Assembly (NCBI GenBank): GCA_002104905.1
Contig: MCFE01000533.1
Coordinates: forward strand, 1-61,650
DNA: 61,650 nucleotides
Source of the DNA: Basidiobolus meristosporus CBS 931.73
Taxonomy: Eukaryota; Basidiobolomycota; Basidiobolomycetes; Basidiobolales; Basidiobolaceae
Direction of reading: 5' to 3'
How positions within the stretch are numbered: position 1 is the first letter of the stretch; each line of letters starts with the position of its first letter. A model generated the notes under the pieces. The model searched no databases and was not told where the DNA came from. It worked only from the letters and a program-made list of their open reading frames with translations. Of the stretch, positions 2,781 through 61,650 are shown piece by piece. The translations under genes were made by a program, and so were the position numbers.

Positions 2781-3147
2781 ACCTAAATGTAGATTTACGT
2801 GTAACATTCCATTTAGCCATTGGCGCTAATGTGTACCTGAGGATCATTGCGGGTGCCTGAAAGTTAAGCTGTCAAATGTTGATTTATTTGCTGTATGGAT
2901 GCCGATGACATGAAGTCTAAGTGTTATCTATGCTCTAGTTTAACCTACTCTCTAGCCTAGTGTATCAACTTGCATACCAATATTATAGTTTACAGTTTTA
3001 GGTGTATAGCTAGTACCTTAAGCGAAGGCGAGGGGATATTCAACGATTATGAGTGCAGCGACACGTCAAAAGCTCATAAGGAGTGTCCGAAAGACACGAT
3101 GTTGGAAAGAACTATGGAATCGGAGATTTGGTCCAAACGTCCATCAT
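2781..3147. other. Convergent intergenic 3' region
   Basis: A 367-bp AT-rich stretch between the stop codons of ALDC and the minus-strand 7TM-RGS gene. It should hold both polyadenylation signals. No gene seen. Confidence 0.5.
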
Positions 3148-24937: not shown

Positions 24938-26476
24938 TCAAGCAGCAATAACATGCATGGAGTTGGTATGACCAACACCGGGTTTGGCGCCTTGAACAAC
25001 AACAAGAGTATCGCCACGTTGGAGGATGTTCATGTCAATGGCTTGCTCAATACTCCATTGGATGCGCTCATCCACGTCTTGTTGCCATTTATCAGAGTCG
25101 GTTAATTCTTCAGGACTCAATGAAGCCTTGGTATATATGAATGGATAGCAACCACGATAGAGGTGGATTTGACGGGCTGTTTGTGCTTCTCTTGTAACAG
25201 TTACAATAGGACAATGAGGTCTATACTTAGCGACAAGTCTTGCCGAATTTCCAGAAGTCGACAAAACTACAATTGCCTTGGCACCAGACTCATAGGCGGC
25301 ATTCACTGCCGAACTGGCGATTGTCTCACTGGTGTCAATGGGGACTTCCTGGAGTGCTCTCATCTCGTTGAAAAGTGCTTGGTAGGAGATAACCGACTCG
25401 GCCAGTGCTGCAACATGTGCTTGCATCTCAACGGCTTGAATAGGGAATGCTCCCTTCGCCGTCTCTCCTGACAGCATCACGCAATCCGCGCCATCAAGAA
25501 TCGCATTCGCCACATCGGATACCTCTGCTCTGGTAGGTCTTGGGTTGTAGGTCATCGACTCGAGCATCTGGGTTGCACAGATCACCGGTTTACCCACCAG
25601 GTTGCACTTGGCAATCATCGCCTTCTGTGCGATGAACACTCGTGAAACGGGAATCTCAATCCCCAAGTCTCCTCGAGCAATCATCACCCCGTCCGTCTCT
25701 GATAGGATCTCATCGAAATTGTTCACCCCTTGGAACGACTCAATCTTCGAGATAATCTTGATGTTCTTGCCCGCCTCTCCAAGCACCTTGCGGATCTGGC
25801 GCACATCCTCTCCTGACCGGATGAATGATGCAAAGATCATGTCCACCCCTTGCTCAACACCAAACTTCAAGTCACTGATGTCCTTCTCGGACAGTGCTGG
25901 TAGATCGACATCGGTCTTGGGAAGGTTCACTCCCTTGCGTGAAGCGAGCTTGCCTGCGTTCAAGGCGCGCACTCTGACTCCATCCGAAAGAATCTCAGTC
26001 ACCTCAAAGGACATGATTCCATCGTCCACAAATATCGCCTTGCCTACTTCTATCACCTTTGGCAGGTTCTTGTAGTCAACGTATATCACCTCGCCTGAGC
26101 CTGCTTCCTTGTACTGTTCGTCGGTAGAGAAGGTCATCTCGTGACCCGCCTCAAACGCCACCTCTTGGTCACCCTTCATAAGACCTGTGCGAATCTCCGG
26201 GCCTTTGGTGTCCAGGGCAATAGCCACGGGTCTGCCAGGCATCTCCTCCATGGATTTGCGAATATTGGAGATAACCGAAGCGTGATATTCGTAAGAGCCG
26301 TGTGAGAAGTTCATACGAGCGATGTTCATACCCGCCTTTCTGAGGGCGTTCATCATAGGAACGTTGTTGGTCTTAGGACCGATGGTGCAGATGATGGAGG
26401 ATTTTCGGATTGAAGGACTAACATCGACGTTAAAGCTAGCCATCCAGCCAAGACTTGTGGAGTTGATATCGTTCAT
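24938..26476 (-). CDS. PYK: Pyruvate kinase, copy B
   Basis: Tandem paralogue of copy A in the same orientation, intronless, 512 aa from the ATG at 26476 ([18 protein letters not shown]). All catalytic blocks are present and identical to copy A within 25221-26377. The C-terminal domain differs (for example [16 protein letters not shown] versus [16 protein letters not shown], and the end [10 protein letters not shown] versus [10 protein letters not shown]), so effector binding or stability could differ. A TATATAAA box lies about 60 nt upstream (26535-26542). Divergent promoters suggest different expression. Confidence 0.97.
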
Positions 26477-28535
26477 ACTAAAATCGACTAGTGGGTAAGA
26501 GATAAAATATTTTGCTGTTAGCGACCATTACCAATCTTTATATAAACATTTACTCCAGCCTACTCAACAGGATTCTGTAGGTCATTGGTTGGTATCTTTC
26601 GCTTTGAAAAATGGAAACAAGCACCCCAATCATCCAGAGCTCAATCTGATAGGAGTGCCAAAACTGGTATCTGCACCATGAAGTTATTAGTTTAATCGAT
26701 TTATTTACTGTGGCGGAGCGTACTTGTATTTACTGAACCTTTGTTAGGGGTTTCGATGAAATGAACGCTCACGAACTGGCGTGGTTGGATCAGGTTTCCA
26801 TTTTGGAAATGCGGGTCGGATTCCTTTATCAACAGGGTGAAAATACGAATCTAGTGATGAAATGTGCTACCTTCGTTGCAGCCTGTCCACATGGCATGCC
26901 GAGTCCTCAATCACCAGTTTAAGTTTGGTTGTAGAGCCTCGTTCTGATGGGAAATACTGGTGTGCGTCGCACCTTCCAAGGCCAGCGAGGGTGGGAGACA
27001 GGGAGTTACATAAGATCGCGGTGATAAGGGTATCTTGTACCGTAAACCTCATCTTCCAATTCCTGCAGCTATTTGTTCATATCAAGCGGATATAGTAAGG
27101 GGCATACTAACTAAGATTCTCGTCGTTTCAAGTGTAACTCCAACAAGAATGCGAGCAGCCAAAATTTTCCATGGTATTGGCAGCATTCTTTTGACCATTC
27201 TGCTAAATGCGCCATTATCGATCGAATGAGTTCATCTTGCTTCCCTAATCATCTGTGCAACCCTGAACGCGCTGAGGCTGGCCAATACTTCTCTGGTTCA
27301 ATGCTATCAAATCGAGCAAGGATATGTCAGATTCCGGATAGCAATGTAGAAAATAGCAGTCCTATGGGCTTGCTGATTTCCAGCTTCAACTAGGGAAAAC
27401 ACACTTCATCGATTCAGAACACATCATTCTACGTCATTCCTTGAGAGAAATGTCCCCTGACTGGCCACAGGCGCTAATTATGTACGGCGTTGGGATGCAA
27501 CACGGCCATTATATAAGCAAATAGTGCTCAACATGTAAGGACTTGGAATATGTTGCATAGCGATGCCAAGCTCGGTGATTGGAAGGAACACACATCTACA
27601 TAAATGGGAATGGAAATGCCTAAATCCGGGGACTTCCTAATTGGAAGCAAGCAAATGAGTATTTGAGCACAAACTGAGCGGCCTCCAGCGCAAAGGTAAC
27701 CATTGCCTTGATCCCATTGAATGACATTGATGAATGCTGTACCATGTTATTAATGAGTGGATCGTAGCATCTACATCTATTTACTTGATAAATCTTGAAT
27801 TGTAATTAATGAGCACAATCCCCAGATTTGGCTGGAGGAGTTAAAATGATTAAGTTAATTAGACTTTCGAACAGCTTGATTTCGCTTATTTATAGTTCCT
27901 GGAAAGAGGCTATTTTCGTTGAGTGCACAATTTGCATTGGCAGTTGACGACCAACCGAATGGGATTTGAAGGAGATTTCTTTGCTCCTTGAATGCACAGG
28001 CTGTACCCAGGACACATACACAGCATACCCTTCAGCTCGATAATTAGCCATATTCCTAAAAATACCCTCAAATTCGGAAGTTTTGAATGGAATCGACCAG
28101 TTTTATTCGTTTCAATTTCATTTAGGAGTGACTAGTGGTTACATGCGGAAAAAATTGTTAAAAATAACTGTCATCCAATAGGAAGGTTACTCTTATTGCG
28201 TTGCTTTAAAAGAATGTTTACTAAATTGCTTATCCCAGTGTTTCATCTCTGCATCCTTTCCCTTCCCTTAATCACCACCATTTTTCATTTTTGGTTCTTT
28301 TGACGCCTTCACCCGAGTTTCCTGCTAGCCGAAGCTAACAACCCTCTTTGTTCCTTGTCAGCAGCCAGCTAAGACTTTGCACGCCTTTTCGCAAGCTTTT
28401 TATTTTCGTGCTGCCTTTAGAACTTGCTTTGTGGTGTGAGAACAATTCACTATAGACAATTATCTTGATAGACATACAGTCCTTTGAAACAGTGCCGTCT
28501 AAGTATTTTATCTTGCCAGACACAATATAATACAC
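26477..28535. other. Long intergenic region (2.06 kb)
   Basis: Promoter of pyruvate kinase copy B at the left end; the rest is AT-rich without a supported gene. Minus-strand frames around 26867-27230 are open for 60 or so codons but show no family motif, conserved junctions or signal peptide. The last 200 bp is pyrimidine-rich, as expected for a fungal promoter before the TBC gene. Confidence 0.4.
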
Positions 28536-44613: not shown

Positions 44614-45814
44614 ACTTATAGTAGTGGTAGGTTAGATAGATAGATAGTTCTACCAAACTGAGGACCAAGGAACAAATGACAAGTCACAGAACGGAGAAGC
44701 TCCGAAATAGAAGCACTGAAGAGTTAAAGAAGCAAAAGACCTATTGTCCAAAATAAAGCACCGATCCCATGATCAGTGACAGTTTAATTTAATGACCACT
44801 TTGAGGTAACCTCGGGATTTGGGGGCATACTTCCTCTCAGCTTCCTTTCAGCTATACACATCAACACAAATAAAAAACCATGTAGTAAATTAGAATCGTA
44901 TTGGTAAAGATGGTATTGATTTTCGATGATGGTAGGCCCGATTTGAGACATCGCTATCGACTTACCTAATTAGGACTAGTCAATTTATCCGGAACAACAA
45001 TCCATGAGAACCTTGAAAACTATAGTGTTTCTCATGGTATGATACATCAGTCCATATTCCGTAACAATGCATTCCAGATCATAATTGCAATTCAATCAGT
45101 AGGCATAAGGCTAGCTTGCATCATCGGATCTCTTATAAAGCTGATTATATTTTCCACATCCGAGGTTATTATTAGATGTAGGAAACTCCATCATTTATGC
45201 AACTAGAAATAACTGTGTGGCACAAGCCAACATGCGAATATTTCTTCATGCTTCAAGGAGCTGACCACCAAACACATGAACCCTGTGTAAATTAAACATC
45301 TACGTAGCTGTTACACGCGGTGCATAGTGACCTTTGTAGCTCAAATCGGGGTGTATCTTATTTGCTACATACGTGGTGGAAATTGGAGAAAAATGCGTTT
45401 TTCCTTTTGAAACTTCTGATGGATACCATTCTTTGAAGAAGACCTGCAAAAATCCAACTCTGCTATAGCCTGCAGCTCTCAAAAAATCAGATTAGAGATC
45501 GTGATGATATATAGCAGTTGGCCCCTGCTAGCCCTCTGTAAATTCTTCTATAAGAATATCCCAAATGCTAATTTCCTGTAACAACAGTTGTAGACATTCT
45601 GTTGTAACTATTTAGTTTACACCTAAACCACTCATATAACATAAGAGTCTACTTTGCTTATTGCTAAGTTTTGAATTATTTACCCAAGATTTAGATCGTT
45701 AGATATTAGCTAATTCTTAGAATTAGTGAAGGTCTGGAGGTTATAGATATTTTCTGACTTGTCCAAAAGCCCTCAAGCTTTAATCACAGCTTCCTATGAT
45801 TTTCTCTAAAGTGT
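44614..45814. other. Intergenic subtelomeric sequence
   Basis: 1.2 kb. Promoter of the Zn2Cys6 gene near 44614-44800 (GATA repeats at 44635-44646), then AT-rich sequence without a supported gene. Confidence 0.4.
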
Positions 45815-46157
45815 TGTAAGAGTCGTGGAGATATTGGAAGTGATTTGGAGAGCAAGTAGATTATTTGGTTTTTACTTAATGATTTATTGAATGTAAATGT
45901 AGTACTTATACTTTTACATGGTTTTAGCAAATAGCGCGTAGAATATGCTTAGAAGGATCTCAAGAACATGTGTGCAAAGCTTGGGGCAGTTTGGACAGCT
46001 TTGAGAATTTTCATGTTCTGGATACTTGATGTTTTGTTGAACATATTCTAAGTAAGTCCGGGCAAGGAGTTTGGTCAGTATTCTCTAAGACTTGTAGGTA
46101 ATGCTCCAAGTGACTAATCTAGGCCAACATTTAAGTGTAATTACAGATTTTTACAAA
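45815..46157 (-). mobile_element. Solo copia LTR, decayed
   Basis: About 340 bp matching the LTR at 53373-53700 along its whole length, from TGTAAGAGTC at the left to TTTTTACA at the right, with TGGAGATATTGGAAGTGAT, TGATTTATTGAATGTAAA and GAGAATTTTCATGTT shared. No internal domain next to it, so a solo LTR left by recombination. Many substitutions show it is old. Confidence 0.78.
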
Positions 46158-48941: not shown

Positions 48942-49384
48942 ATGATTCCCCGCCATTACTTGTAATAATAATCTCCATTGTAAAATTTCTCACCATAATA
49001 AATCTTCACATGATTTTCACAAATTAAACTAAATGCGGTAGCTATCACGGTATGTGCGGATTGGGTAAATTTGCCCCAAACGTTGGATCGGATCTTACCT
49101 CCAGTATGCATCCCAATTAATAGTTGTATGGTTACGCATATGCCCAAATTAAGATTCAATCTCAGTCGCTCAATAAACGTTGTTTACTCGAGAGGGATAT
49201 AATTGGGTAGATGGGGTCATCCGAGGCGAATATAAAGAAAGCATGTACGTTGTCCTTGCATATACTGAGCGGTGACAAGTGGCCATATTAGGTTCGCACA
49301 TAGTGAGTTCTCTAAAATTTGTACACTATGATTTAAATAGCTAAGCTATGAGAATACCACGTGTAACTATGAAATTTACGATAT
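48942..49384. other. Intergenic, last unique sequence before the retroelement array
   Basis: 443 bp after the DUF3533 stop. AT-rich, no gene. Its right end meets a copia fragment that lacks its LTR. Confidence 0.4.
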
Positions 49385-49625
49385 ACCCACTCAACTAATA
49401 ATTCATATTAACTAGGCCTAATTCTGGTCTAAGATATTCAAGTTTATCTCTAGCTAATGGTTTTATGTACATATCCGCAATCATTTCATCTTCAGCACAG
49501 TGAGCTAGGTTAACCAAGTAGTCTTCTATGGATGAAACAATGCATAATACCTATGTGCTTAGCTCTAACTTAGAAAGCTGGATTTCTACCAAATTGAACA
49601 TATTCTTGCCTATCCTGAAACACAG
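49385..49625 (-). mobile_element. Fragment of a copia element (end of RNase H region)
   Basis: Matches 53701-53945 of the larger copia element: the polypurine tract complement CCCACTCA and then the end of the RNase H coding region, with many substitutions and small deletions. Its distal (5' coding) side is cut exactly where TAGGGG begins at 49626. Confidence 0.82.
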
Positions 49626-49631
49626 TAGGGG
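49626..49631 (+). repeat. Telomeric junction 1 (TAGGGG)
   Basis: Partial TTAGGG unit between the truncated copia fragment and the 3' end of LINE-1. Same composition as the longer junctions further out. Confidence 0.55.
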
Positions 49632-49712
49632 AGGGAAAGTCACCAAGTTGGTGAAATCTTTATTTGAGTTAAGAACTAATCCAAGTACAAATAAAGAAGC
49701 CAATTAAGAGGT

Positions 49713-52562
49713 CTAGAACCTCTCTAATAAGTAGTCTAATTTATGTTTTGTTTCATCTCTAATGTTTGTTTCAATAAAGTAGAGCTCATCAGGGGTAAAT
49801 ATAAAATTCAAGGGTTTTGGGGGAAGTACAAATTGTAGATGTTTCTGATCAATATAATCTAAGACTGGAACCCAGCCTAGGATTAGGTGTAGTAGGAAAG
49901 GTGTGTGGACTTGTAAGTAGTGCTGCCACATAGATCTTAGATGGTCCTGAGCCAGTAGTCTTGGTTTCTCAGCTTTTTGAAGTTTTGAAGCAAGCTCTGT
50001 TACTACAGCAGAGCCTACCAGGGCATGCCAGCAAGAAGATTTTAGGGAGGAGTTAGATTTAAGCCATTGTTTGATGGAGGGGTTATGTGATTTCTGAAGT
50101 TTCACTAGGAAGGAAGCACAGAGATAGACCATTTGGATTTGGTATGGGTAGAACCCAAAGGCTCCATTAGTTGCATGGATATAGGGAGATACTGGAAGAT
50201 ACGGTACCAAGGATCTGATACACTGATGGATAAATTTATCCAGGTGGTGAAGTTCTCTGGAGGTTAGGGGTATAATGTGGAGACCAAATTCAAGTACTGG
50301 TAGTACATACTGCTTCAGAAGTATAGGGATCTTTTGAATTGGAGTTTCCGGAGTGACTACTACCAGAAGCTTTTTAAGAGCCTGTTGGGCAAGACAGATC
50401 CTATTATTCAGGTGGAGCTTTGAGTCAATCCCATATTGACAAAATGGCAGACCCAGATATATTGCTGTTTGCTGTGGCAGAATGCTAGTGTTCTGTATAG
50501 TTGTAGTGCACCCAATTGGGACTGTCTTGGAAATTGAGAGTGAGAGGTTGTTGGCAGCCAAGTACTTCTCAATAATGGCAGTGTCTGTTATGGGATTAGG
50601 AGTTGCAATCTTGATATCATCTGCATAGAGAGTTAGTAGTGGATAGGGAGAGTCTGGTGAGGGGCCTTTTGGAAATAAAGGAAAGTCATGCAGAAATATC
50701 ACAAATAGTAAGGGACCTAGTACAGATCCTTGGACTACACCATTTGGAACCTCATAAGTCTCTGATGTGCCACTTAGATGCAAAATTTTGGCTGAGTTCT
50801 TACAAAATAGAGAACGTACAAGAAGGGTCATTGGCAGTGTGGTAACTGCTAACAGCTTTCTCCAAAGCAGGGCTCTGTCAACAGAGTCAAAGGCTTTAGT
50901 AATGGCAAACAGAATGGTTGGCAATGAGAATTGAAGTGAATGATCATGGCTTAGCACTACAGCCATATCCAAGGAGAGTTTGGGCAAGAAACCAAACTGA
51001 GAAGGATGGAATGGATATAGTGGAGATTGCAAGGATCTTGCTATTATAAGCTCAAAGATTTTCTGGCATGTTGGTAGGAGTGAAACTGGCTGGTAACAAC
51101 CTGGGAGTGAGTGTTTCCCCTTCCCTTTGTATAAGGGTATTACATTTGCCTGTGACCAGGGCTTTGGGGTAGTCAATTGTTGGGCACGGATAGAGTGGAA
51201 TGGGAGAAGTAAGTGACTCATTTTGGAGTAGCACACCCAGAGTAGATCATAGGTAATCAAGTCATGTCCAGGTGCAGTATGTGCAGGAAGCTTCTTTAAA
51301 GTTTTCTCCAGAAGCTTGGCTGAAATCAGAATTGGAGATGTTGGACTGCTGGATATGTTACCAGTATGATAGAAAGGAGGAGTGGGATGCATGGATGAAT
51401 CAAAGAAAATAGGGGCCAGTTTGTCTGGTGATGGTATACTCCTTACTTGGGGTCTCATGGCTTTGTATACTCTTGATATGGACCTTGTGGTGGCATTCAT
51501 ATTTACCAAGGGCAAGGTATCCATGATATGAGCCCATAATCTAGTATGCTTAGGGATCTGTAGTGACTTGGAGTAGGAGATTGTGCTTTCCAGGAGGTTC
51601 TGTGTTTTTGGGTTAGGGAAACATAGGTAGCTGGAATTTAAGGCAGAAATGATGGATTTCCATTTAAGCTGGTTTGCACATGGCTTTTGGTAGGACTTGG
51701 TGGGTAGGGCCAGACAGCCAGTGATTATGATGAAATGCTGGTAAAATAGCCATAATGCATTTATACCAATACAAATCCATGCAGGTAAGCTGGGAAATGC
51801 ATATTCTGTAAGCAAGGATAGGTAGTTGGCAAAGTCCTGCATCTGTGATACTGAAGCTTTGGCAGGCAGGATTGTCAATGGCTGAAGAAGGGTGCCAATT
51901 GGTAGGGTTTTTCTAGCAGAAATGATAATATGTATTGGCTTGTGATCAGATTTCTCTAGTGAACCACCGCTGATATCCTCTGGAATGCTTGTAACCTGGT
52001 GGATGTACTGTAAGGCAGCTGGAGTAGCTGTTACCCAGTCAACACAACAATGGGCTTGCTGAGTGTTTAGAGTTACCAGATGGTTTTGTTGGAGAAACTT
52101 TTTAAAGTGCTGCTCTTGGGTTCTAAGTCTGGATGAAATAGTGGTGATATTTTCAGGATGGGGAATATTTATATCTCCCACTAACATACAAGGGATTGAT
52201 GAGCTGTTAGTGAACTCTGATATGGCCAAGAAAATTGCCAGTGTTATGGAGTTAGACAGAGATGGAGGGAGATAGACAGTAATGGCTACTATAGTTGGAA
52301 GTGTTAGAGCATAACAGTAATACTCATAGATGATGGATACATTTGTTGAGGGTGCAAGCTTAGAAGATGAAAGAGCAATGAGTGCCATTGAGTGAGCTGG
52401 AAATTTTGGGTGAGCAGCTGAATATGCATTCAGTCTAGAGGGAAGTTTTGGCAACTTAACATCAATTAGTAGGAGCAAGGAATATTCCTTTTTCAGTAAG
52501 TTTTCTAATTCAGCTACTGTTGGAGTGATGGAGTTGCAATTAAGTAAGAGTATGTTCTGTAG
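49713..52562 (-). CDS. LINE-1 ORF2: endonuclease / reverse transcriptase
   Basis: About 950 codons open from directly after the ORF1 UGA. The N-terminal apurinic-type endonuclease shows LLNCNSI, LIDVKLP, LVGDINIPHPEN and SDHKPIHI. Reverse transcriptase motifs: VIPLYKGKGKHS, CYQPVSLLPTCQKIFE, FGFLPKLS, ITKAFDSVDRALLWRKL, NGVVQGSVLGPLLFVIFLHD, and the catalytic LTLYADDIKI (YADD at 50616-50627). An in-frame ATG occurs only at about codon 37, within the LIDVKLP stretch of the endonuclease domain, so initiation there would remove the first endonuclease block; this favours translation continuous with ORF1. No RNase H domain seen. Confidence 0.9.
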   Translation of the reverse strand, partial: LQNILLLNCNSITPTVAELENLLKKEYSLLLLIDVKLPKLPSRLNAYSAAHPKFPAHSMALIALSSSKLAPSTNVSIIYEYYCYALTLPTIVAITVYLPPSLSNSITLAIFLAISEFTNSSSIPCMLVGDINIPHPENITTISSRLRTQEQHFKKFLQQNHLVTLNTQQAHCCVDWVTATPAALQYIHQVTSIPEDISGGSLEKSDHKPIHIIISARKTLPIGTLLQPLTILPAKASVSQMQDFANYLSLLTEYAFPSLPAWICIGINALWLFYQHFIIITGCLALPTKSYQKPCANQLKWKSIISALNSSYLCFPNPKTQNLLESTISYSKSLQIPKHTRLWAHIMDTLPLVNMNATTRSISRVYKAMRPQVRSIPSPDKLAPIFFDSSMHPTPPFYHTGNISSSPTSPILISAKLLEKTLKKLPAHTAPGHDLITYDLLWVCYSKMSHLLLPFHSIRAQQLTTPKPWSQANVIPLYKGKGKHSLPGCYQPVSLLPTCQKIFELIIARSLQSPLYPFHPSQFGFLPKLSLDMAVVLSHDHSLQFSLPTILFAITKAFDSVDRALLWRKLLAVTTLPMTLLVRSLFCKNSAKILHLSGTSETYEVPNGVVQGSVLGPLLFVIFLHDFPLFPKGPSPDSPYPLLTLYADDIKIATPNPITDTAIIEKYLAANNLSLSISKTVPIGCTTTIQNTSILPQQTAIYLGLPFCQYGIDSKLHLNNRICLAQQALKKLLVVVTPETPIQKIPILLKQYVLPVLEFGLHIIPLTSRELHHLDKFIHQCIRSLVPYLPVSPYIHATNGAFGFYPYQIQMVYLCASFLVKLQKSHNPSIKQWLKSNSSLKSSCWHALVGSAVVTELASKLQKAEKPRLLAQDHLRSMWQHYLQVHTPFLLHLILGWVPVLDYIDQKHLQFVLPPKPLNFIFTPDELYFIETNIRDETKHKLDYLLERF

Positions 52563-53372
52563 TCAGGCAGACTCTGAGGTTGCCTGTTCCTGCTGAAACT
52601 CTTGCACTGCCCTTTGTAAGTTTCCAGAGTTATTCCACAACTCTTCAAATGGAGCTTGTGTAATGTCTTTCAGGATTCTAATTGCTTCCTCTTTCAAGAA
52701 GTAAGCCACATCATAGGTTGGAGCCTGTTTCTTAATGGTAGCAAAGAAAGCCATAATTGCCATGTGAGCTGGGGGCTGGTTGATTATTCCTGGCTCAGTA
52801 TCCATTGCCTCTGGTGGAATGATTGTGAATTTGGTAGGCACCCAGTTTAGATTTTTTGCCAGATACTTAGTTAGTGCAGTGGTGAAGTTTCTGTCTACAA
52901 TCATTTCTAGGATCTTTCCTCTTCTCCAAGCTAGGTTAACAATTTTTGAAGTGTCAATATTTAGAGAGCGGAATGTACGCCTGATGTTTGCTATAGTAGT
53001 CCATGGAACATTGGCAAAGTATAGCAAGGACCAATTCTGGAGCTGAGGTAGGTTTGCTGGAGGCTTATAGGTAGACTTCCTGGCAGGTTGTGTGGTAGGC
53101 TTTGGTGTTTCCAAGGTAGCAAGTTGTGGTTGAGACATTTTAGAATTACATATGACTTTGGAAAAAATTCTGCCAGCAACTGTGTCAGGAATGTTAGTAC
53201 TCATTGATGGTGCAGGGCCTGGCTCCTGGTACTCCTTTTCTAGAATACTTGAGTGTGTCTCTTTTTGTTTTCCTTTATCCAATGTGCTATGCCTTGGAGT
53301 GGGATTTTGAAGAATAGTGACTTCAGGTATCAACTCTGGGGTTTGGTGATTGTCAAACATTGTTGCTTGCAT
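52563..53372 (-). CDS. LINE-1 ORF1: RNA-binding protein
   Basis: 269 codons from the ATG at 53372 (a second ATG follows five codons later). The N-terminal ~95 residues are hydrophilic; then an RRM-like core: TYKPPANLPQLQNWSLLYFA, NVPWTTIANIRRTFRSLNID, IVNLAWRRGKILEMIVDR, NLNWVPTKFTII. The same core occurs in LINE-2 ORF1 and the ORF1-only element. The frame ends ATSESA then UGA, followed in frame by CUA and ORF2. The 5' end abuts the copia LTR, so the native start may be missing. Confidence 0.82.
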   Translation of the reverse strand: MQATMFDNHQTPELIPEVTILQNPTPRHSTLDKGKQKETHSSILEKEYQEPGPAPSMSTNIPDTVAGRIFSKVICNSKMSQPQLATLETPKPTTQPARKSTYKPPANLPQLQNWSLLYFANVPWTTIANIRRTFRSLNIDTSKIVNLAWRRGKILEMIVDRNFTTALTKYLAKNLNWVPTKFTIIPPEAMDTEPGIINQPPAHMAIMAFFATIKKQAPTYDVAYFLKEEAIRILKDITQAPFEELWNNSGNLQRAVQEFQQEQATSESA

Positions 53373-53700
53373 TGTAAGAGTCTTGGAGATATTGGAAGTG
53401 ATTGGGAGAACAAGTATATTATGTGGTTTTCACTTAATGATTTATTCAATGTAAAAGTAGTATTTATACTTTTACCTGGTCTTGGCATTACAAACACATA
53501 GGATAGGCTAAGGAAGGTCCCAAGAGCATGTGTGAAAAGCTTGGGGCTGTTTGGACAACTTTGAGAATTTTCATGTTTTGGGTAAATATTCTAAGTAAAT
53601 CCCTACAAGGAATTTGGTCAGTATTCTCTAGGATTTAGGGTAATGATCTAAGTGACTAAGTTAGGTGAATATTTAGGTGGAATTACAAGTTTTTACAACA
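53373..53700 (-). mobile_element. 3' LTR of copia element (328 bp)
   Basis: On the minus strand it begins TGTTGTAAAAACTTG at 53700, directly after a purine tract (GAGTGGGAG, 53701-53709), and ends ...CTCTTACA at 53373. The TG...CA ends and adjacent polypurine tract define it as a 3' LTR. Two older relatives lie at 45815-46157 and 38623-38902. Confidence 0.9.
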
Positions 53701-55254
53701 CTCCCACTCAGCTAAATATTTATACTGACTAGTCCTAATTCTGACCTAAGATATTCAAACTTGTCTCTAGCTAATTGTTTGGTAAATATGTCTGCAATCA
53801 TTTCATCTGTAGGACAGTAAACTAAGCTAACTAAGTTATTCCCTATAGCTTCACGTATGAAATGATGTCTAATATCTATGTGCTTGGTTCTAGCATGAAA
53901 AGTTGGATATCTACCTAATTGTATACATCCTTGATTATCCTGAAATAAAGTAATAGGCGTTTTTTGACATAGGCCTAAATCTGTAAAAAGTTTTCTTAAC
54001 CACATTGCTTCTCTTGTAGCTTCACAGGCTTCCATATACTCTGCCTCTGTAGTAGAAAGTGCTACGGTTGGTTGCTTTCTTGAATTCCATGAAATTGCTC
54101 CTTTACAGTAGAGAAAGGTGTATCCTGTGGTGGATCTTCTGTCTTCCAAATTTTGTCCCCAATCAGCATCAGAGTATCCCACAAGATCCTGTTCTGAATC
54201 CTTATAAGTGTATCTTAAGCAGATATCAGCAGTTCCTTTTAGGTATCTAAAAATTTGCTTAACTGCTGCAATATGATCAAATCCATAGTTCTGATTATGT
54301 TGGCTGACAGCTCCCACTGAATATGAGATATCTGGACGTGTTCCAAGCATGATATACATCAGACTGCCAACCATAGATTGATAAGGAAAGTCTGCTTTCA
54401 GATGGCACCAAGCTCTCTTGATTTGGTTGAGTTTTGACCAAGTTAAGGTTTGTCTCCATTGGGGTAGCTGCCGGTTTACAGTCTTCCATTTTGTACTTCT
54501 TTAGTATATCTTGAATATACTTGGATTGACTTAGGGCAATAGTCTGGGTACTTCTGTCTATGGAGAACTTAATCCCTAAGTAGTAACTAAGTTCTCCTAG
54601 ATTGGACATCTTGAACTCCTTAGATAGGCTGGATTTAGTCTCTTCCAATGTTTCTTGGTTATTGGTGGCTATAATAAGATCATCCACATATAGAGCTAAT
54701 AGAACTGGATTTGCTCTATCTGGCTTATAGTATATACTATAGTCAGCATTACTCCTTCTGAAACTCAAAGATTCCAAATAAGAATCTATCTTGCAATACC
54801 AGGCTCTTGGTGATTGTTTGAGACCATATAGTGACTTTTTAAGCTTGCAGACCAAATGAGGGTTATCTTGGTCAACAAACCTATCAGGCTGGTCCATATA
54901 CACATCCGCATCAAGTTCTCCATTCAAAAAATGCAGTTTTTACATCCATTTGATGAATAAAAAACTTATATTTGGCTGCAATAGCCAATGGTAATCTGAT
55001 GGAATTAAACTTGGTTACCGGTGCAAAGGTCTCAGTATAGTCAAGTCCTTTTGTTTGAGAGTATCCTTTGGCTACAAGTCTTGCTTTGTATCTTTCAATT
55101 GTACCATCAGCCTTGTATTTTGTCTTGAAGACCCATCTGTATCCAATTGATTTTTGGTTGATTGGAAATTTGACCAAGTCCCAAGTTTGATTTTCCATCA
55201 GGGCCTGATATTCCTCAGTCATTGCAGATCTCCAAAACTTTGTCTGAGGGCTAT
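53701..55254 (-). pseudogene. Broken Ty1/copia pol (reverse transcriptase and RNase H)
   Basis: Three overlapping frames make up the C-terminal half of a copia polyprotein: RT start (WDLVKFPINQKSIGYRWVFK, FAPVTKFNSIRL, QMDVKTAFF), RT catalytic block (KSLYGLKQSPRAWY, LLALYVDDLIIATNN) and RNase H (MVGSLMYIMLGTRPDISYSV, VGYSDADWGQ, ISWNSRKQPTVALSTTEAEYMEACEA, KHIDIRHHFIREAI). Frameshifts occur at an A-run near 54925 and near 54420, so it is inactive. The coding sequence stops at 55254 in the run SPQTKFWRSAMTEEYQ, where TTAGGG repeats begin; gag, protease and integrase are missing. It was inserted next to the LINE-1 5' end. Confidence 0.9.
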
Positions 55255-55273
55255 TTAGGGTTAGGGTTAGGGG
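55255..55273 (+). repeat. Telomeric junction 2 (TTAGGG x3)
   Basis: Three perfect units ending in an extra G (TTAGGGTTAGGGTTAGGGG), in the same orientation as the terminal telomere, set directly at the break in copia pol. Reads as a healed old chromosome end. Confidence 0.9.
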
Positions 55274-56264
55274 TCTAAATTCTCTTATTGAATCTGATCA
55301 AGTGTAGTAATACTATATCAACTTGATTCAAGTTGAAAAGTGCATATTGTATAAAGAAGATATATCTATAGTAATGTTAAGGTAAAATACTGCTCAAGTT
55401 GAGTTGAGTTCTGAAAAGAAATTTGTCAACAAATCAGGCTAGAAAGTGAAGTAAAGCTGGGAGTTATTTGAAAGCAAAGCACTAAGGGAAAGTGTAGAGC
55501 TATACTACCACTTCCTGAAAGGCAGGGATCTCACAGGAAGGCAGAAGCTCAGGTCTAATTGCAGATATGATAGCAGTGTTGTATCCAAGAGAAAGTGTGA
55601 TAAACTCTTGAATGGTTTAACTGAACCAAAGGGACAATTAAGTGCAGAATCTTAGAATTGTCAGAGAGTGGCGGGAATATTAGCAAAAAGATTCTGATCT
55701 AAAATTGGTCTTGGATATAGCTGGGTTGGCTGTAAAGACAATGATATTTGTTTGCTAGGCAGGCTAGGCTTGGTGTTCTTTGGAGTGCTAGATGTACTAG
55801 GCTTGGATAGAAACTAGAACGGAATTGTTGGATTCTTATTTTTGCTGAGACAGAATCTTAATTTTGTTGAGACACACACTAAACCAAAAGGTTCAGTAAA
55901 CTTTATTTATACTTTTCTGATCAAGTTGAATTAGTAAGCGCCAAGGGACTGGATTGATTGAAATCAATTTGGGTGTTCATAGGTGCATAAGATAAATGAA
56001 AATTACATCATCAATCAACTGATGTCTTGGCAACTGCACAGTGGTTGGATAGATCTCAGATGACTAATCACCTGGGAAGGCTTGGCAGATAGGGTGATAA
56101 CGTAATGATCATTTGAAAATAGATCAGGTGTGATAGCTAAAAATAGATTCTGAGGTGGGATAAAATAAACTGTAACTGGGATTTGTTATGTTTGGGTTAG
56201 GGAAAATCAGTTAGGGTACTAGATTTTCAAACAGAGTAAAATTGGCTAAGTTTTAAATGTTGAT
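55274..56264 (-). mobile_element. Probable LTR / 3' flank of the gypsy fragment
   Basis: About 990 bp without coding capacity. On the minus strand it starts TGTTGTGCATCAAC right after the chromodomain stop codon and a purine-rich GGAAGGAAG, as expected for a 3' LTR behind a polypurine tract. It contains GGGTTAGGG and AGTTAGGG at 56192-56215. The far end runs into TTAGGG repeats, so its 3' terminus cannot be fixed. Confidence 0.55.
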
Positions 56265-56564
56265 GCACAACATCACTTCCTTCCGGAAGAGGAGTTTTTT
56301 GATACCTTCTGGGTTCCTCTGCGGCTACAATACTGATCAATAATGGCAACATCATCAAAGTTGGTGTAAGGTTCCCAGGTGTTGTGTTTGGCATCATAGC
56401 CTTTCCACTTGACTAAATTAAGGCAATTTGGTTCTTCTCCATCATGGTCCACAATAGCTTCAACTTCATAGGATTCCAAAGTTACTGGGTCTTGAGAAAT
56501 GAGTTTGAGTGAAGAAGGTGGAAAGTTTTTGGGTAGCAGTGCTCCAGTGTTATCCTGAAGTACG
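56265..56564 (-). pseudogene. Gypsy (chromovirus) integrase C-terminus with chromodomain, truncated
   Basis: The frame is open from 56562 down to the stop near 56273. It starts inside the integrase tail (VLQDNTGALLPKNF), then the linker KLISQDPVTLESYEVEAIVD and a chromodomain: EEPNCLNLVKWKGYDAKHNTWEP, with the aromatic residues (W, Y, W) that grip methyl-lysine. This defines a Ty3/gypsy chromovirus. Everything upstream (gag to integrase core) is missing; the break at 56564 is capped by TAAGGGTTAGGGG. Confidence 0.85.
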
Positions 56565-56577
56565 TAAGGGTTAGGGG
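56565..56577 (+). repeat. Telomeric junction 3 (TAAGGGTTAGGGG)
   Basis: Two units (one degenerate) at the broken gypsy end and directly before the 3' end of the ORF1-only element. Confidence 0.8.
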
Positions 56578-57604
56578 ATGATCATCACCAAAGGGTGAAA
56601 TCTTTATTTAAATAATAAATAAAGAAGCCAAGTTTGAATATGAATATCTGAGATGCAGGAAGCCTACAAGATAAACTTGGACTTTGCTGTATCCCAAATA
56701 TCCTCAATATCAAAGTCTAGAGGAGAGTGTAGCAAGACTGCTTGTTCACTGTAGTATTTCTTGAGGAAGTTTGTGACTTGAAGGGAAGGAGAGTTTTTCA
56801 ACAAGCTGGTAAATCTTTTGAGGAGTTCTTTTTCCAGAGAGAATGGCACAAAGAGTGGAATGTCCAAATGATATCTGAATATATGCTCTGAGAGCTCCCA
56901 ATCCAGCATATTTTTGACTTCTTCTGTAAAATCTTCAACAATATCTTTGTCAAGAATAACTTCCAAGAGATCCCTGGCAATGTACTGAATGTTAATAATC
57001 TTAGGCATATGAATTCCTAGGTCCTTGAGGTAGTTTCTTTGTTCTGATATTGGGAGATATCCTGCATTTCTGAAATAGCAAACAGTCCAGTTGGCAGTAG
57101 GAGGAGTATCAGGGCTGACAGGGAATCTTCTTCTGGCTTTAGAGTGCACTGGCTTAGGAGACTGTCTTGATGGAAGGGCAGCTGGTTTTGGATGAGCTTG
57201 AAGTGCTTGGGAGTAGGTTTGAGTACAAGTAGTAGAAGTTCCTGGTTGCTGAGAATTTTCAGATTGACTGGATGAAGAGCTAATTGATGGGCTGCAAGGT
57301 AAGGAAGAAGCCGAAAGAGAAGTGGAGAGGGCTGGGTGAAGTTCAGAAAGAGTTTTGAAAAGAATTTGGATCTGAGATTTCAACATTGAGTTTTCAGCTT
57401 CAAGAAGTGAAACTCTTTGTTCAAGGTAAGAAGTCTGTAAAGAGTGAAAGTTGGGTAAAGACATGGAAGTAGTAAATAAGAAGAAAGGAGTAGTTGGGGT
57501 GGGAGGGTGGGAAAATAGGTAAGAAGAAAAGAGAGGAAAGATCTGAAATTGAAAATCTCAGAATTTATAGATGGATGGACAAGGGTAGAGGATTGATTAA
57601 TCCA
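56578..57604 (-). mobile_element. ORF1-only non-autonomous retroelement, complete
   Basis: About 1.03 kb, bounded on both sides by telomeric units. It holds one ORF (57464-56664) homologous to the LINE ORF1 core, no ORF2, and the same 3' tail as the LINEs (TGGCTTCTTT, AAATAAAGATTTCACC, hairpin 56585-56598). A 5' UTR of about 140 bp precedes the ORF. Read as a non-autonomous partner that borrows LINE ORF2 in trans. Confidence 0.75.
56664..57464 (-). CDS. ORF1-like coiled-coil RNA-binding protein of the non-autonomous element
   Basis: 266 aa from the ATG at 57464. Residues ~5-45 form a heptad-like coiled coil (LEQRVSLLEAENSMLKSQIQ), which would drive oligomerisation. A Ser/Pro/Gln-rich linker with a basic patch (HSKARRRFPVSP) follows, then the RRM-like core NWTVCYFRNAGYLPISEQRN...KIINIQYIARDLLEVILDKD. 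The core aligns with LINE-1 ORF1 (NWSLLYFANVPWTTIANIRR) and LINE-2 ORF1 (TWTVVYLKQVPWTPISNIRK) at low but clear identity. It ends with TAG, not the UGA-CUA of the LINEs. The frame is fully open, suggesting it was under selection when inserted. Confidence 0.78.
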   Translation of the reverse strand: MSLPNFHSLQTSYLEQRVSLLEAENSMLKSQIQILFKTLSELHPALSTSLSASSLPCSPSISSSSSQSENSQQPGTSTTCTQTYSQALQAHPKPAALPSRQSPKPVHSKARRRFPVSPDTPPTANWTVCYFRNAGYLPISEQRNYLKDLGIHMPKIINIQYIARDLLEVILDKDIVEDFTEEVKNMLDWELSEHIFRYHLDIPLFVPFSLEKELLKRFTSLLKNSPSLQVTNFLKKYYSEQAVLLHSPLDFDIEDIWDTAKSKFIL

Positions 57605-57630
57605 GGGTTAGGGAAAAATAGGGTTAGGGG
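57605..57630 (+). repeat. Telomeric junction 4 (GGGTTAGGG, A-rich spacer, GGGTTAGGGG)
   Basis: Two telomeric blocks separated by AAAAATA, between the 5' end of the ORF1-only element and the 3' end of LINE-2. Confidence 0.82.
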
Positions 57631-57686
57631 GGAGACAGTCACCAACAGGTGAAATCTTTATTTCAGTTGAAACAAAGAAGCCAGCG

Positions 57687-60455
57687 CTACTGTTGTAGCT
57701 TTGATACAAGTGTGTGTAGCTGAGGGGAATTTGTAGGTAAGTTAATAAGAAGTGATGATAGTTCTTCAGTGCTCAAGACACTGTTCAGTGGGAAGGGGGG
57801 TAGCAAGAGAGGTAAGAATGACTTGTGAACAACATTAATGAGGGGAATGTGATAAGGATTGATATTCATCATAAAGGGAGTGTGCTGCTGCAGATATTGC
57901 TGCCAAAGGTCTGTCAAGTACTTCAGGTAGGCCAGCTTGGGTTTTTCTGACTGCAGAATATAGTGAGCAAACTTCTTGACTTCAGGATCTCCAAGTATAG
58001 TTCTCCAGCAGGAGTCAGGTGTAGTGTGGTGTGTTCTCTTCCAGGCCTTAATCAGTGGGTTGTTGCAGTTGTGAAGTCTGAGGTATAATCTGGTTCTAAG
58101 GTAGAGAAGTCTGATCTTATAGGGCATAAGCCCAAAAGCACCAAGAATAGCATGTCTGTAGGGGCATTCAGGCAAATGAGGCACCAAGGAGGTAATGCAC
58201 CATACTGCAAACTTGTCAAGCTTAGTGCAGTCTCTAGAAGTAAGAGAGAGAAGTGGTAAGCCAAATTCCAGGACAGGGAAGACAAACTGCTTGAGTAGAA
58301 GGAGGCAGCTGGGAGCTGAAGTTGTAGGAGGAGTAACAGCCAGTAGCTTGTGGAGTGCCTGTCTTGCTAGGATAATTCTCTTCTTCAGGTGTGCTCCAGA
58401 GTCTAGTCCAGTAGGAAGGAAAGGAAAGCCAAGATATGTAGCAGAAACCTGAGCAGGTAGAGTGGAGTTCTCCAAGTTGATGGGAGAGCCCAAAGGTACT
58501 GTCTTTGCAATGGAAAGCTGGAGATTATTCTTCTGCAGATACTGGTGGATGGTCTGAGAGTCTTGTTGCACATTGGAGGAGGATATTCTGATGTCATCAG
58601 CAAAGAGAGTAACCAGGCAGTCAGCTGAGAGTCTTGGGAAATCATTCAGGAAGATGGCAAACAGTATAGGACCAAGCACAGAGCCTTGAACCACTCCATT
58701 AGGAACTGAGAACACAGCTGATTGCTCACTTGGGTGCAGAATTCTTGCTTGTGGATCCAGAAACAGAGACCTGACAAGGAGGGTGAGAGAGGTACTGGAG
58801 AAGCATTGCAACTTGGACCAAAGCAGATTTCTGTCAACTGAATCAAAGGCCTTAGTAATATCAAACAGAACAGAGGGATACTTGCACTGGAGAGAGTGAT
58901 CTTGGCTAAGTATGACTGCATATTCCAAGGAGAGGCCAGGAACAAAGCCAAACTGTGCAGGATGAAACTTGAGGGAGTCAGAGTAGAGCTCCTGAGCAAG
59001 CAGAAGCTCAAACACCTTTCTGCAGGTGGGCAGCAGAGATATTGGCCTGTAGGAGCTAGGATCCAGGTGCTTTCCTTTACCCTTGTACAGTGGCAGAACA
59101 TTTGCAAAGGACCATTCCTCAGGAGTAGAAAGCTGGGCTGAGCATTGCTGAAACAGTGGAAGCAGAAGTGCAGACATGGCCTTGGTACTAGTCTTCAGAA
59201 GCTCATAGGAGATTGTGTCCACACCTGGAGCAGTAGAGTTGGGAAGCCTCTTGAGCACATTATGGATTCTCCTTTGATCAAGTGCAAGTGGGATGGGCAG
59301 AGTCTTGAAGTCAGGATGAAAGCCAGGAGTTGAGTACTGCTTTGTAGAGAAGAAGATGTTAGCCAGCTGTTCTGTTGAAGGTAACTTCCTGGAAGAGGGC
59401 CTCATTGCCCTGTAGAGTCTTAACACTGTTCTTGTTATAGAGTTGGAAGATTGCAGAGGCAAAGAACTCATAATATGATCCCAGAGCTGAGTATGCAGAG
59501 TGTGGTGAATTGCCTTGGAGTGGTGTATTGCTGTCAGGAGGAGTTTCTCTGTTTTTGGGTTAGGGAAACTCAGGTAGCTTTGTTGCAGGGCTGAAACAAT
59601 GGATTCCCATTTTCTTGAGGTAACAGCAGTAGTCTTGCATGGCAGTGAGAGGGAGGCAGACACTAGAATCAGATGCTTTACAAGGAGCCAGGCATAGTTG
59701 AGATCATCTGGCAGAGAAAGTAGCAAACTGGCAAGCTTCAAGTAGTTCCCAAAGTCTTTCTTCTGATTCTTGGTAGCTTTGTGGGTGAGCACAGTAAGTT
59801 TTGGCAGCTTCTTCTTCACAACTGGTTGCATAGAAAGGGACCAGGCTGGGTGGTCAGAGGCTCTCAAGGATCCTAGCTCAGCTCCAGAGAATTGCTTAAC
59901 TTCATTCACAAAGTAGAGGGCAGCAGCAGAAGGGCAGATCCAGTCAACACATCTTTTCTCAGATTGAGCACCTAGTGCTAGCAGGTGGCTTTCTCTCAGG
60001 AAGTTCAGTAGGAATGTAGACCTTGGCTTCATTCTTGCAGTCAGAGTAGTCTTGTTCTCAGGATGGGGAATGTTGAGATCTCCAAGCAAGATAACAGGTG
60101 TTGATATAGATTGTTGGTATTGCTGAACCTTCTGGCATATAACTTGAACTTCCTGAAGGGCAAGACTTGGAGGCAGATAGCAGAGCACCAGACTGATAGT
60201 TGGCAACTGAAGAGCAGCACAGTAAGGGGAGTAAAGAGGAACACAGAGCTGAGGAGTATTGATGGTAGAAGAGATGAAGCAGATAGAGGAGGTATTCTTT
60301 GTTCTAGGAGTAGAAAAGCAATATAGATTAGTCAAAAGTATAGAGGGTAGCTGAACATCAATCAAACACAGGAGGGAAAATCTTGAAAGAAGTCTCTCTA
60401 GAGTTGGTCTTGATGGCTGTATGCTGTTGCAGTTAAGCAACAGAACTTCAGGTAG
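57687..60455 (-). CDS. LINE-2 ORF2: endonuclease / reverse transcriptase
   Basis: About 920 codons, uninterrupted. The endonuclease shows LLNCNSIQPS, LIDVQLP, LLGDLNIPHPEN and SDHPAWSL; the RT shows VLPLYKGKGKHLDPSSYRPISLLPTCRKVFE, FGFVPGLSLEYAV, FDITKAFDSVDRNLLWSKL, NGVVQGSVLGPILFAIFLND and VTLFADDIRI. The catalytic motif is FADD (near 58594-58605), one substitution away from the YADD of LINE-1 and a common LINE variant. The frame follows ORF1 directly after UGA CUA, with no ATG close to the junction. Being intact, it is the best candidate for an active enzyme in the array. Confidence 0.92.
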   Translation of the reverse strand, partial: LPEVLLLNCNSIQPSRPTLERLLSRFSLLCLIDVQLPSILLTNLYCFSTPRTKNTSSICFISSTINTPQLCVPLYSPYCAALQLPTISLVLCYLPPSLALQEVQVICQKVQQYQQSISTPVILLGDLNIPHPENKTTLTARMKPRSTFLLNFLRESHLLALGAQSEKRCVDWICPSAAALYFVNEVKQFSGAELGSLRASDHPAWSLSMQPVVKKKLPKLTVLTHKATKNQKKDFGNYLKLASLLLSLPDDLNYAWLLVKHLILVSASLSLPCKTTAVTSRKWESIVSALQQSYLSFPNPKTEKLLLTAIHHSKAIHHTLHTQLWDHIMSSLPLQSSNSITRTVLRLYRAMRPSSRKLPSTEQLANIFFSTKQYSTPGFHPDFKTLPIPLALDQRRIHNVLKRLPNSTAPGVDTISYELLKTSTKAMSALLLPLFQQCSAQLSTPEEWSFANVLPLYKGKGKHLDPSSYRPISLLPTCRKVFELLLAQELYSDSLKFHPAQFGFVPGLSLEYAVILSQDHSLQCKYPSVLFDITKAFDSVDRNLLWSKLQCFSSTSLTLLVRSLFLDPQARILHPSEQSAVFSVPNGVVQGSVLGPILFAIFLNDFPRLSADCLVTLFADDIRISSSNVQQDSQTIHQYLQKNNLQLSIAKTVPLGSPINLENSTLPAQVSATYLGFPFLPTGLDSGAHLKKRIILARQALHKLLAVTPPTTSAPSCLLLLKQFVFPVLEFGLPLLSLTSRDCTKLDKFAVWCITSLVPHLPECPYRHAILGAFGLMPYKIRLLYLRTRLYLRLHNCNNPLIKAWKRTHHTTPDSCWRTILGDPEVKKFAHYILQSEKPKLAYLKYLTDLWQQYLQQHTPFMMNINPYHIPLINVVHKSFLPLLLPPFPLNSVLSTEELSSLLINLPTNSPQLHTLVSKLQQ

Positions 60456-60965
60456 TCAGGCAGAGGTTGTAGCTTCTTCAGAGGCAGCATTGACAATGTG
60501 ACCTGCTGAGTCCCAGAGCTCTTCAAATGGTGCATCACTTAAGTCAGCAAGGAGGGAAATGGCATGATTCTTGAGGAAGTATGCCACATCATAGGAGGGG
60601 GCTTGTCTCTTGATGGCAGCAAAGAAAGACAGAATGGCAACATGGGCTGGAGGCTTGTTGAACAGTAGAGAGTCAGAGGATTCAGATTCTTCAGGCACTA
60701 TCTTGAAGTCAGTTTTCAGCCAGTTAAGGTTCTTCTCCACAAAGGCAACAAATGGGTCAGCAATGTTTTGGTCTAGGATAACCTCCAGAATCTTCCCTTT
60801 TCTCCAGGCCAGGTTGACAATTCTTGAGAGCTGAATATTGCATGCCTTGAGTGCTTTCCTGATGTTGGAAATGGGAGTCCAGGGAACTTGCTTCAAGTAC
60901 ACCACAGTCCAGGTAGAAGCTGGTGGTAGGTTTGCTGGGGGCTTGTAAGTCCTTCTGTGTTGCAA
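60456..60965 (-). CDS. LINE-2 ORF1, N-terminally truncated
   Basis: 169 codons from a fortuitous ATG (MQHRRTYKPPANLPP). Begins at the RRM-like core (STWTVVYLKQVPWTPISNIRKAL, IVNLAWRKGKILEVILDQN, KNLNWLKTDFKIVPEE) and ends EEATTSA then UGA CUA in frame with ORF2. The missing N-terminus results from the truncation that TTAGGGG caps. Confidence 0.82.
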   Translation of the reverse strand: MQHRRTYKPPANLPPASTWTVVYLKQVPWTPISNIRKALKACNIQLSRIVNLAWRKGKILEVILDQNIADPFVAFVEKNLNWLKTDFKIVPEESESSDSLLFNKPPAHVAILSFFAAIKRQAPSYDVAYFLKNHAISLLADLSDAPFEELWDSAGHIVNAASEEATTSA

Positions 60966-60971
60966 TGGAGC

Positions 60972-60984
60972 TTAGGGGGGGGGG
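60972..60984 (+). repeat. Telomeric junction 5 (TTAGGG with extended G-run)
   Basis: One TTAGGG unit extended into a run of ten Gs, between the truncated LINE-2 5' end and the 3' end of the SINE-like element. Confidence 0.7.
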
Positions 60985-61498
60985 AGGAAAGTCACCAAGT
61001 GGTGAAATCTTTATTTACTTATGACAAGTATCTAAAGAAGCCAAGTTAATCTGAAGTTATTCCTAGAAAGCTAGGTCTGAGAGATATCTTCCTGGTAAGC
61101 CAGGTCTGAGAGTTGAGAAGCTGAGTAGTACTATATTTCCTAGTTAGCTAGGTCTGAGAGTGGTTTCCTGGAAAGCCAGGCCTGAGAAGTGAGAATCTGA
61201 ATATATCTGAGCTAAGTTATACTGGTTTGCGGTAGCTGGATTGTGGCCGGAAAGGCCAGTAGACTGGGGGAACTGAGATGAATTTCTGGGCAATCACTGG
61301 CCAAATTTACTAGGCAAATCTGGCCATTAGCATTTCAAGGATTTCAGCCAATCAGAGCCTTTACTTTGCCCGATGGTTGATCAAGCCATCTCCCAATGAG
61401 CACACATCAATTTATTAATCAAATTTTGCTGGATCCAGGATTTGAACCCACAACCATGGGTATGGAAGGGTTAGGGATAACCACAAGGCTAAGTGTTC
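60985..61498 (-). mobile_element. SINE-like element with tRNA-type promoter and LINE-type 3' tail
   Basis: 514 bp. On the minus strand: an A-box-like TTAGCCTTGTGG (61481-61492) and a B box GGTTCAAATCC (61438-61448), the spacing expected of an internal pol III promoter; then a body with four short hairpins (61062-61075, 61091-61104, 61139-61152, 61167-61180); then the LINE-type tail TTGGCTTCTTT...AAATAAAGATTTCACC with hairpin 60992-61005. No ORF. It sits immediately inside the present telomere. A full tRNA cloverleaf does not fold well, so 'tRNA-derived' is likely rather than certain. Confidence 0.62.
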
Positions 61499-61650
61499 TT
61501 AGGGTTAGGGTTAGGGTTAGGGTTAGGGTTAGGGTTAGGGTTAGGGTTAGGGTTAGGGTTAGGGTTAGGGTTAGGGTTAGGGTTAGGGTTAGGGTTAGGG
61601 TTAGGGTTAGGGTTAGGGTTAGGGTTAGGGTTAGGGTTAGGGTTAGGGTT
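61499..61650 (+). repeat. Terminal telomere repeats (TTAGGG)n
   Basis: About 25 uninterrupted TTAGGG units to the end of the window, G-strand running outward. This marks a natural chromosome end and gives the orientation of the whole window (telomere at right). Confidence 0.98.

Follow-up and report, generated by a model that had tools for sequence, protein, structure and literature searches.

The right-hand end of contig MCFE01000533.1 (assembly GCA_002104905.1) of the fungus Basidiobolus meristosporus CBS 931.73 carries an array of retroelements interspersed with telomeric sequence, which is the subject of this analysis. The whole stretch analysed, positions 1 to 61,650 of the forward strand, is referred to as the window. 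Seven pieces make up its last 12 kb; every one is on the minus strand, its 5' end outward, and short TTAGGG-like tracts divide most of them. From the centromere side to the telomere the pieces are a copia fragment, a long interspersed nuclear element (LINE-A), a copia element with its 3' long terminal repeat (LTR), the 3' part of a Ty3/gypsy-like element, an element with only the first open reading frame (ORF1) termed G1, a second LINE (LINE-B), and an element resembling a short interspersed nuclear element (SINE). The features, with the basis of each in brackets (E, expectation value), are as follows.

49375..49625, minus strand: 3' fragment of a copia element, truncated towards the telomere (shares a 145 nt repeat with 53692-53836 at 78% identity; sequence reading)
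49626..49631, plus strand: TAGGGG junction, less than one telomeric repeat (sequence reading)
49632..53371, minus strand: LINE-A, with a 3' tail of two hairpins, ORF2 and partial ORF1, its 5' side cut by a copia LTR (RVT_1, E 7.4e-16)
49713..52562, minus strand: ORF2 of LINE-A, APE-type endonuclease and reverse transcriptase (RT) (frame list, Pfam, comparison with LINE-B)
52560..52565, minus strand: TGA CTA separating ORF1 from the in-frame ORF2 of LINE-A (genome-wide comparison)
53372..55254, minus strand: copia element with 3' LTR, 5' part missing (RVT_2, E 3.4e-45; an LTR copy of the same kind lies inside the window at 45814-46093; dispersed family)
55255..55273, plus strand: three TTAGGG repeats (sequence reading, motif search)
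55274..56564, minus strand: 3' part of an LTR element with a chromodomain (Ty3/gypsy-like), truncated towards the telomere (Chromo, E 4.5e-12 at 56273-56581)
56565..56577, plus strand: telomere-like tract TAAGGGTTAGGGG (sequence reading, motif search)
56578..57603, minus strand: G1, which codes for ORF1 only (gag-only) and carries the shared 3' end; frame at 56664-57473 (frame list, protein comparison, selection test)
57604..57632, plus strand: tract AGGGTTAGGGAAAAATAGGGTTAGGGGGG (sequence reading)
57633..60971, minus strand: LINE-B, 5'-truncated inside ORF1 (RVT_1, E 2.6e-25; fuller copy at another locus, L091)
57687..60455, minus strand: ORF2 of LINE-B, 922 codons (frame list, Pfam, genome copies, structure model)
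60453..60458, minus strand: TGA CTA separating ORF1 from the in-frame ORF2 of LINE-B (genome-wide comparison)
60972..60984, plus strand: TTA and ten G, about one repeat or less (sequence reading)
60985..61498, minus strand: SINE-like element, its head containing an exact B box and its tail the shared 3' end (genome copies, motif and tail comparison)
61499..61650, plus strand: (TTAGGG)25, reaching the contig end (repeat search)

The placing of the chromodomain piece with Ty3/gypsy relies on chromodomain integrases, which we take to be typical of that group. A preliminary description of the window had reported six TTAGGG-like tracts with the G-strand outward, and our reading finds all six in their places; the motif TTAGGGTTAGGG (two telomeric repeats, at most one mismatch) has 31 matches in the window, all 31 on the plus strand, whereas shuffled sequences give 0.14. 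Two of the six, 49626-49631 and 60972-60984, are about one repeat or less. The same description counted six minus-strand elements; the retroelement frames between 49.4 and 61.5 kb are indeed all on that strand, but seven pieces are present. Its statement that TTAGGG fills every break fails at the boundary 53371/53372, where no TTAGGG lies between the copia LTR and LINE-A. The frame of G1 is open over 269 codons, and the SINE-like piece is short of only about 4 head bases. On the array strand the window copies also contain TTAGGG within their bodies (four in LINE-A, one in LINE-B and one in the promoter-like head of the SINE-like element), and CCCTAA occurs in none of the three.

Genome-wide, the non-LTR members of the array are almost confined to contig ends, with their 5' ends outward. 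Copies on contigs longer than 40 kb were counted as terminal when they lay at most 15 kb from the end faced by their 5' side; contig sizes were mostly interpolated from length-rank order, which is monotone over the 55 known sizes and yields a total of 89.4 against 89.0 Mb. By this measure all 26 LINE-A copies are terminal (32 places; 3.9 expected), together with 39 of 41 LINE-B ORF2 copies (49 of 1385 candidates scored), 46 of 46 SINE-like elements (62 matches; 40 of 396 candidates scored), and 117 of 119 copies of G1 and a second ORF1-only family, G2 (143 of 144 matches typed; 18.8 expected). The tail pattern common to LINE-A and G2 is terminal in 77/81 cases among 100 listed of 240 places, and the ORF1/ORF2 junction of LINE-B in 79/82 among 100 listed of 154; uniform placement would put 12-16% there for these two sets, as for the SINE-like element and LINE-B ORF2. 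For a 16-mer of the common tail (59 typed among 100 listed of 1705), 27/32 matches fall within 15 kb and 32/32 within 25 kb. The copia family provides a built-in control. It is dispersed genome-wide and uses both strands: of the 150 places scored from 6350 candidates, 83 are on the minus strand. Near the end faced by their 5' side lie 32 of 116 copies, compared with 17.2 expected. The preliminary description had named interior copies as a finding that would tell against it, and its proposal withstood this test of the placement of the non-LTR members.

The junctions are equally regular. We found 136 tail junctions, on many contigs, of which 133 were parsed and 3 were not; tracts were delimited by exact matching only, and imperfect longer ones come out shorter. 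At least one telomeric base precedes the G-run in 132 of the 133 parsed (median 5; at least 9 in 17). The element side always meets a G-run of length 2-10, a variation to which homopolymer errors may contribute. By comparison, 17 of the 19 loci that reach the right end of their contig do so with a telomere, whose median tract is about 204 bp. Because the tracts between elements are far shorter than this standing cap, priming on nearly bare ends fits at least as well as insertion at the cap. Several junctions hold less than one repeat beside a neighbour broken within its body. In truncated neighbours whose break lies inside a known element (n=54; of 116 junctions, 48 lacked a reference and at 14 the neighbour was complete at its 5' end), the overlap with telomeric sequence at the break averages 1.56 nt against a null of 0.39. 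Such seeds range from 0 to 4 nt, reach at least 2 nt in 50% of the 54 against 8.4% in the null, and are missing in 11/54. These telomeric seeds fit breakage followed by healing or re-priming. Four micro-insertions were also found, in which 7-28 nt are copied past the G-run before telomeric repeat resumes, one of them straight into a terminal telomere. The start-to-start spacing of adjacent SINE copies varies within single contigs, which speaks against one unit copied in tandem.

The two APE-type LINEs, the two ORF1-only families and the SINE-like element share one predicted two-hairpin 3' end with a C-run. In sense direction it comprises a hairpin of 6-10 bp (UCUUUAUUU/AAAUAAAGA type), a hairpin of 5-6 bp (UCACC/GGUGA), a short pyrimidine-rich stretch and the C-run, which is complementary to the telomere repeat and directly adjoined by TAA(CCCTAA). 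RNAfold returns both hairpins in 5/5 families, with z from -2.3 to -3.8. The protein of G1 is 30% identical to LINE-B ORF1 over 154 aa and 62% identical to a protein of Basidiobolus ranarum, and both G1 and G2 are under purifying selection. In some G2 copies the 5' part consists of tandem units of about 101 bp, up to eight in the stretch seen (locus L074, ~475-1400; locus L030, ~2397-3019), which resemble the variable number tandem repeats described at the 5' ends of the FoTeR elements of Fusarium oxysporum (PMC12857005). The SINE-like element is about 520 bp long and non-coding, and it has in common with its partner LINEs the two hairpins and C-run at the 3' end. Its head contains an exact B box, the strict A-box pattern is unmatched, and neither ARAGORN nor Rfam finds a tRNA in it. 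TTTT occurs 0 times against 3.65 in shuffles, and the sense strands of the LINEs and G1 are depleted likewise. No telomeric SINE-like element from elsewhere was found in the literature searched, from which most subscription papers are missing.

The ORF2 products of the two LINEs are 45% identical. LINE ORF2 is intact in 45/49 scored places, and dN/dS is below 1 in the LINE frames as in the ORF1-only frames, indicating purifying selection. An APE fold is predicted at residues 1-213, before the RT; Pfam Exo_endo_phos families align to this region below their cut-off, and the best match of the endonuclease model is the TRAS1 endonuclease, tied with that of R1Bm and with APE1. One catalytic Glu is replaced by Asp. 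The nearest named relatives of the RT are aphid RT proteins, at 26-32% identity. In each LINE a single TGA separates ORF1 from ORF2, which continues the same frame; the 13-nt block that contains it, TCTGCCTGACTAC, is identical in the two. The stop is TGA in 100/100 listed places of 154 for LINE-B, where the search pattern fixes the context and all those listed have 0 mismatches, and in 31/32 places for LINE-A, one of the 32 having a different base after the stop. As copies of one family are not independent in such counts, the conservation of TGA is better argued from the agreement of LINE-A and LINE-B, given ORF2s that are 45% identical. The first Met of ORF2 is residue 142 in LINE-B and 59 in LINE-A, behind the first endonuclease Asn and Asp. 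UGA CUA is enough for readthrough in the fungus Ustilago (PMC4207609), and both LINEs have this in-frame context with a conserved frame behind it. Programmed stop readthrough between ORF1 and ORF2 is thus likely in both, judging from these sequence features. No LINE with such readthrough was found in the literature searched, in which most subscription papers are missing and PMC5009743 is represented by part of its text.

The assembly comprises 89.0 Mb in 1311 contigs. A TERT-like match (PF12009) is found on one contig as two pieces over the cut-off, one with an internal stop, perhaps an intron. Terminal TTAGGG of about 204 bp, taken together with this locus, means that the ends mix telomerase-type repeats and retroelements. 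The mixed chromosome end envisaged earlier is upheld in this respect and by the placement at ends, but does not extend to the copia pieces, which belong to a dispersed family on both strands. At least 283 contigs bear an array member, among them 227 longer than 40 kb and 27 of the 48 longer than 200 kb. Telomere 24-mers number 7428 forward vs 81 reverse, the telomere being nearly always at the right contig end, an odd assembly bias; at 26.7 per end, the forward ones correspond to an estimated ~278 right-hand telomeric ends. Contig redundancy was checked at seven places only: probes 40-53 kb inside array contigs matched themselves only in 6/6 cases (six of eight fetched), bar one 140-base match at 74%, and a gene of the window has no second copy above 72% in the genome. 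One window protein is 79% identical to B. ranarum and 73% to B. meristosporus. Contig C424 (312,558 bp) has a telomere at both ends, each adjoining a SINE head. The number of array-bearing contigs lends support to a karyotype of very many small chromosomes in Basidiobolus, in line with the old cytology of B. ranarum, which gave ~60 to many hundreds of small chromosomes (PMC3281927).

Telomere-bound retroelements of several kinds have been described, and the comparisons below draw on partial texts of the cited papers. The closest are MoTeR1 and MoTeR2 of Magnaporthe oryzae (PMC7367193) and FoTeR (PMC12857005), fungal non-LTR elements arranged head-to-tail with 5' ends outward and short TTAGGG tracts, with telomere-capped truncated copies, LTR insertions and, in MoTeR2, a non-autonomous partner sharing the 3' end. 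In MoTeR arrays the tracts range from half a repeat to more than 20, and MAGGY and copia insertions occur (PMC7367193). Confinement to telomeres, outward 5' ends and TTAGGG at 3' junctions are all found here as well. On the other hand, MoTeR and FoTeR have a restriction-enzyme-like endonuclease, which the LINEs described here lack, and a CRE-clade RT, whereas the present elements combine an APE-type endonuclease with two ORFs that are split by TGA CTA. MoTeR2 has no obvious function, while G1 and G2 encode a conserved ORF1-like protein, and a SINE-like partner, present here, is not mentioned in those portions of the MoTeR and FoTeR papers. The idea is consequently less new than the preliminary description implied: the layout and the erosion/healing cycle are already known from MoTeR, and what is new is an APE-type lineage with the order ORF1-UGA-CUA-ORF2, together with its ORF1-only and SINE-like partners. 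TRAS and SART of Bombyx and other insects are likewise telomere-bound LINEs with an APE-type endonuclease, but insert in telomeric repeats in opposite orientations (PMC10088271), whereas here one orientation dominates and the tracts are very short. The two hairpins with C-run and the ORF1-only and SINE-like partners also set the present elements apart. The 3' end of TRAS and SART is poly(A). HeT-A, TART and TAHRE of Drosophila resemble the present array in head-to-tail order, outward 5' ends, attachment to broken ends and a split between RT-coding and gag-only elements (PMC4700185), a pairing that G1 and LINE-B reproduce with related gag proteins. Drosophila does without telomerase (PMC4700185), whereas the genome studied here has both telomeric repeats and a TERT-like locus, so that its ends are not built of retroelements only. 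We know of no SINE-like partner in the Drosophila telomere system.

Taken together, we consider it probable that this Basidiobolus, which has a TERT-like gene, harbours a telomere-confined consortium of non-LTR elements that is end-primed and telomerase-capped; contig-end placement, orientation, the shared 3' end, break seeds and telomeric caps are its observed part. LINE-A and LINE-B would supply the RT, as part of an ORF1-ORF2 fusion protein that readthrough of UGA CUA would yield, and G1, G2 and the SINE-like element would ride along via the common 3' end. The C-run/CCCUAA end of the element RNA may pair with the 3' end of a chromosome that is broken or nearly bare, and this end would prime RT, the RNA being copied in part or whole; such priming would leave 3' ends inward and 5' ends outward. 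Telomerase would then cap the extended end, and repeated rounds of loss and re-priming would build up the array, while ordinary LTR elements would insert into it and be cut and capped along with it. Of the cycles of erosion, capping and insertion proposed earlier, break and healing or re-priming agree with seeds of 0-4 nt above chance, but target-primed insertion at the cap is not supported as proposed, the tracts being far shorter than a standing cap. A bolder version, which we offer tentatively, is a second telomerase-like end-extension system, in which LINE, ORF1-only and SINE-like RNAs with a common 3' module would pair with nearly bare or broken ends and be reverse-transcribed without DNA cutting, telomerase and the LINE enzyme alternating on the ends of a hundred or more small chromosomes.

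Several points weigh against the end-primed consortium. The mechanism is read from DNA, and distances to contig ends are approximate unless the contig size is known. One LINE-B ORF2 copy, at C726:56456, lies in inverted orientation some 13 kb short of the right contig end and is the clearest exception to the polarity (intact length, one stop). Copia is itself mildly enriched near ends (55/116 lie at most 15 kb from one end or the other, where 34.4 would be expected). The 3' hairpin stems hardly vary and give no support from covariation. As modelled, the retained APE-type fold would not be needed by a purely end-primed element, though one catalytic Glu is Asp, and the short tracts may be remains of long interstitial tracts that broke, as in MoTeR arrays. 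It is less likely, though plausible, that targeting is of the MoTeR/TRAS kind, the endonuclease nicking standing repeats near their base for target-primed insertion, and later tract breakage and telomerase healing truncating elements and trimming tracts. If a 204 bp telomere were cut at random, the tracts left would be far longer than most of those seen, and those junctions with less than one repeat beside a body-broken neighbour also disagree with it. If the elements had arrived long ago and the arrays now spread chiefly through recombination or break-induced replication from end to end, not by new retrotransposition, this would explain the 98-100% identity of most SINE and LINE-B copies on different contigs, and spread by displacement loop or break-induced replication is documented for MoTeR arrays (PMC7367193). 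We regard this as unlikely, given that SINE spacings differ within one contig, that junctions differ from copy to copy, and that dN/dS below 1 and the intact ORF2s point to continued protein use. The fragmentation into 1311 contigs, the strand imbalance of the telomere 24-mers and the 2/19 loci that reach a contig end without a telomere might suggest misjoined arrays or contig ends that are not chromosome ends; such an artefact is very improbable, since the 133 parsed junctions, on many contigs, follow one common grammar, contig-end tracts are far longer than those between elements, copia lacks the placement of the array members, and one contig has a telomere at both ends.

If the end-primed consortium is real, the same ends would be built in one genome by telomerase together with an entire community of retroelements (RT-coding, gag-only and SINE-like), a state midway between ordinary telomeres and those of Drosophila. 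The array-bearing contigs make the old question of the chromosome number of Basidiobolus directly countable.

Elsewhere in the window, two neighbouring 529-codon frames on the minus strand, 22524-24113 and 24938-26527, are near-identical over most of their length and represent a tandem duplication; presumably they encode pyruvate kinase, which they resemble.

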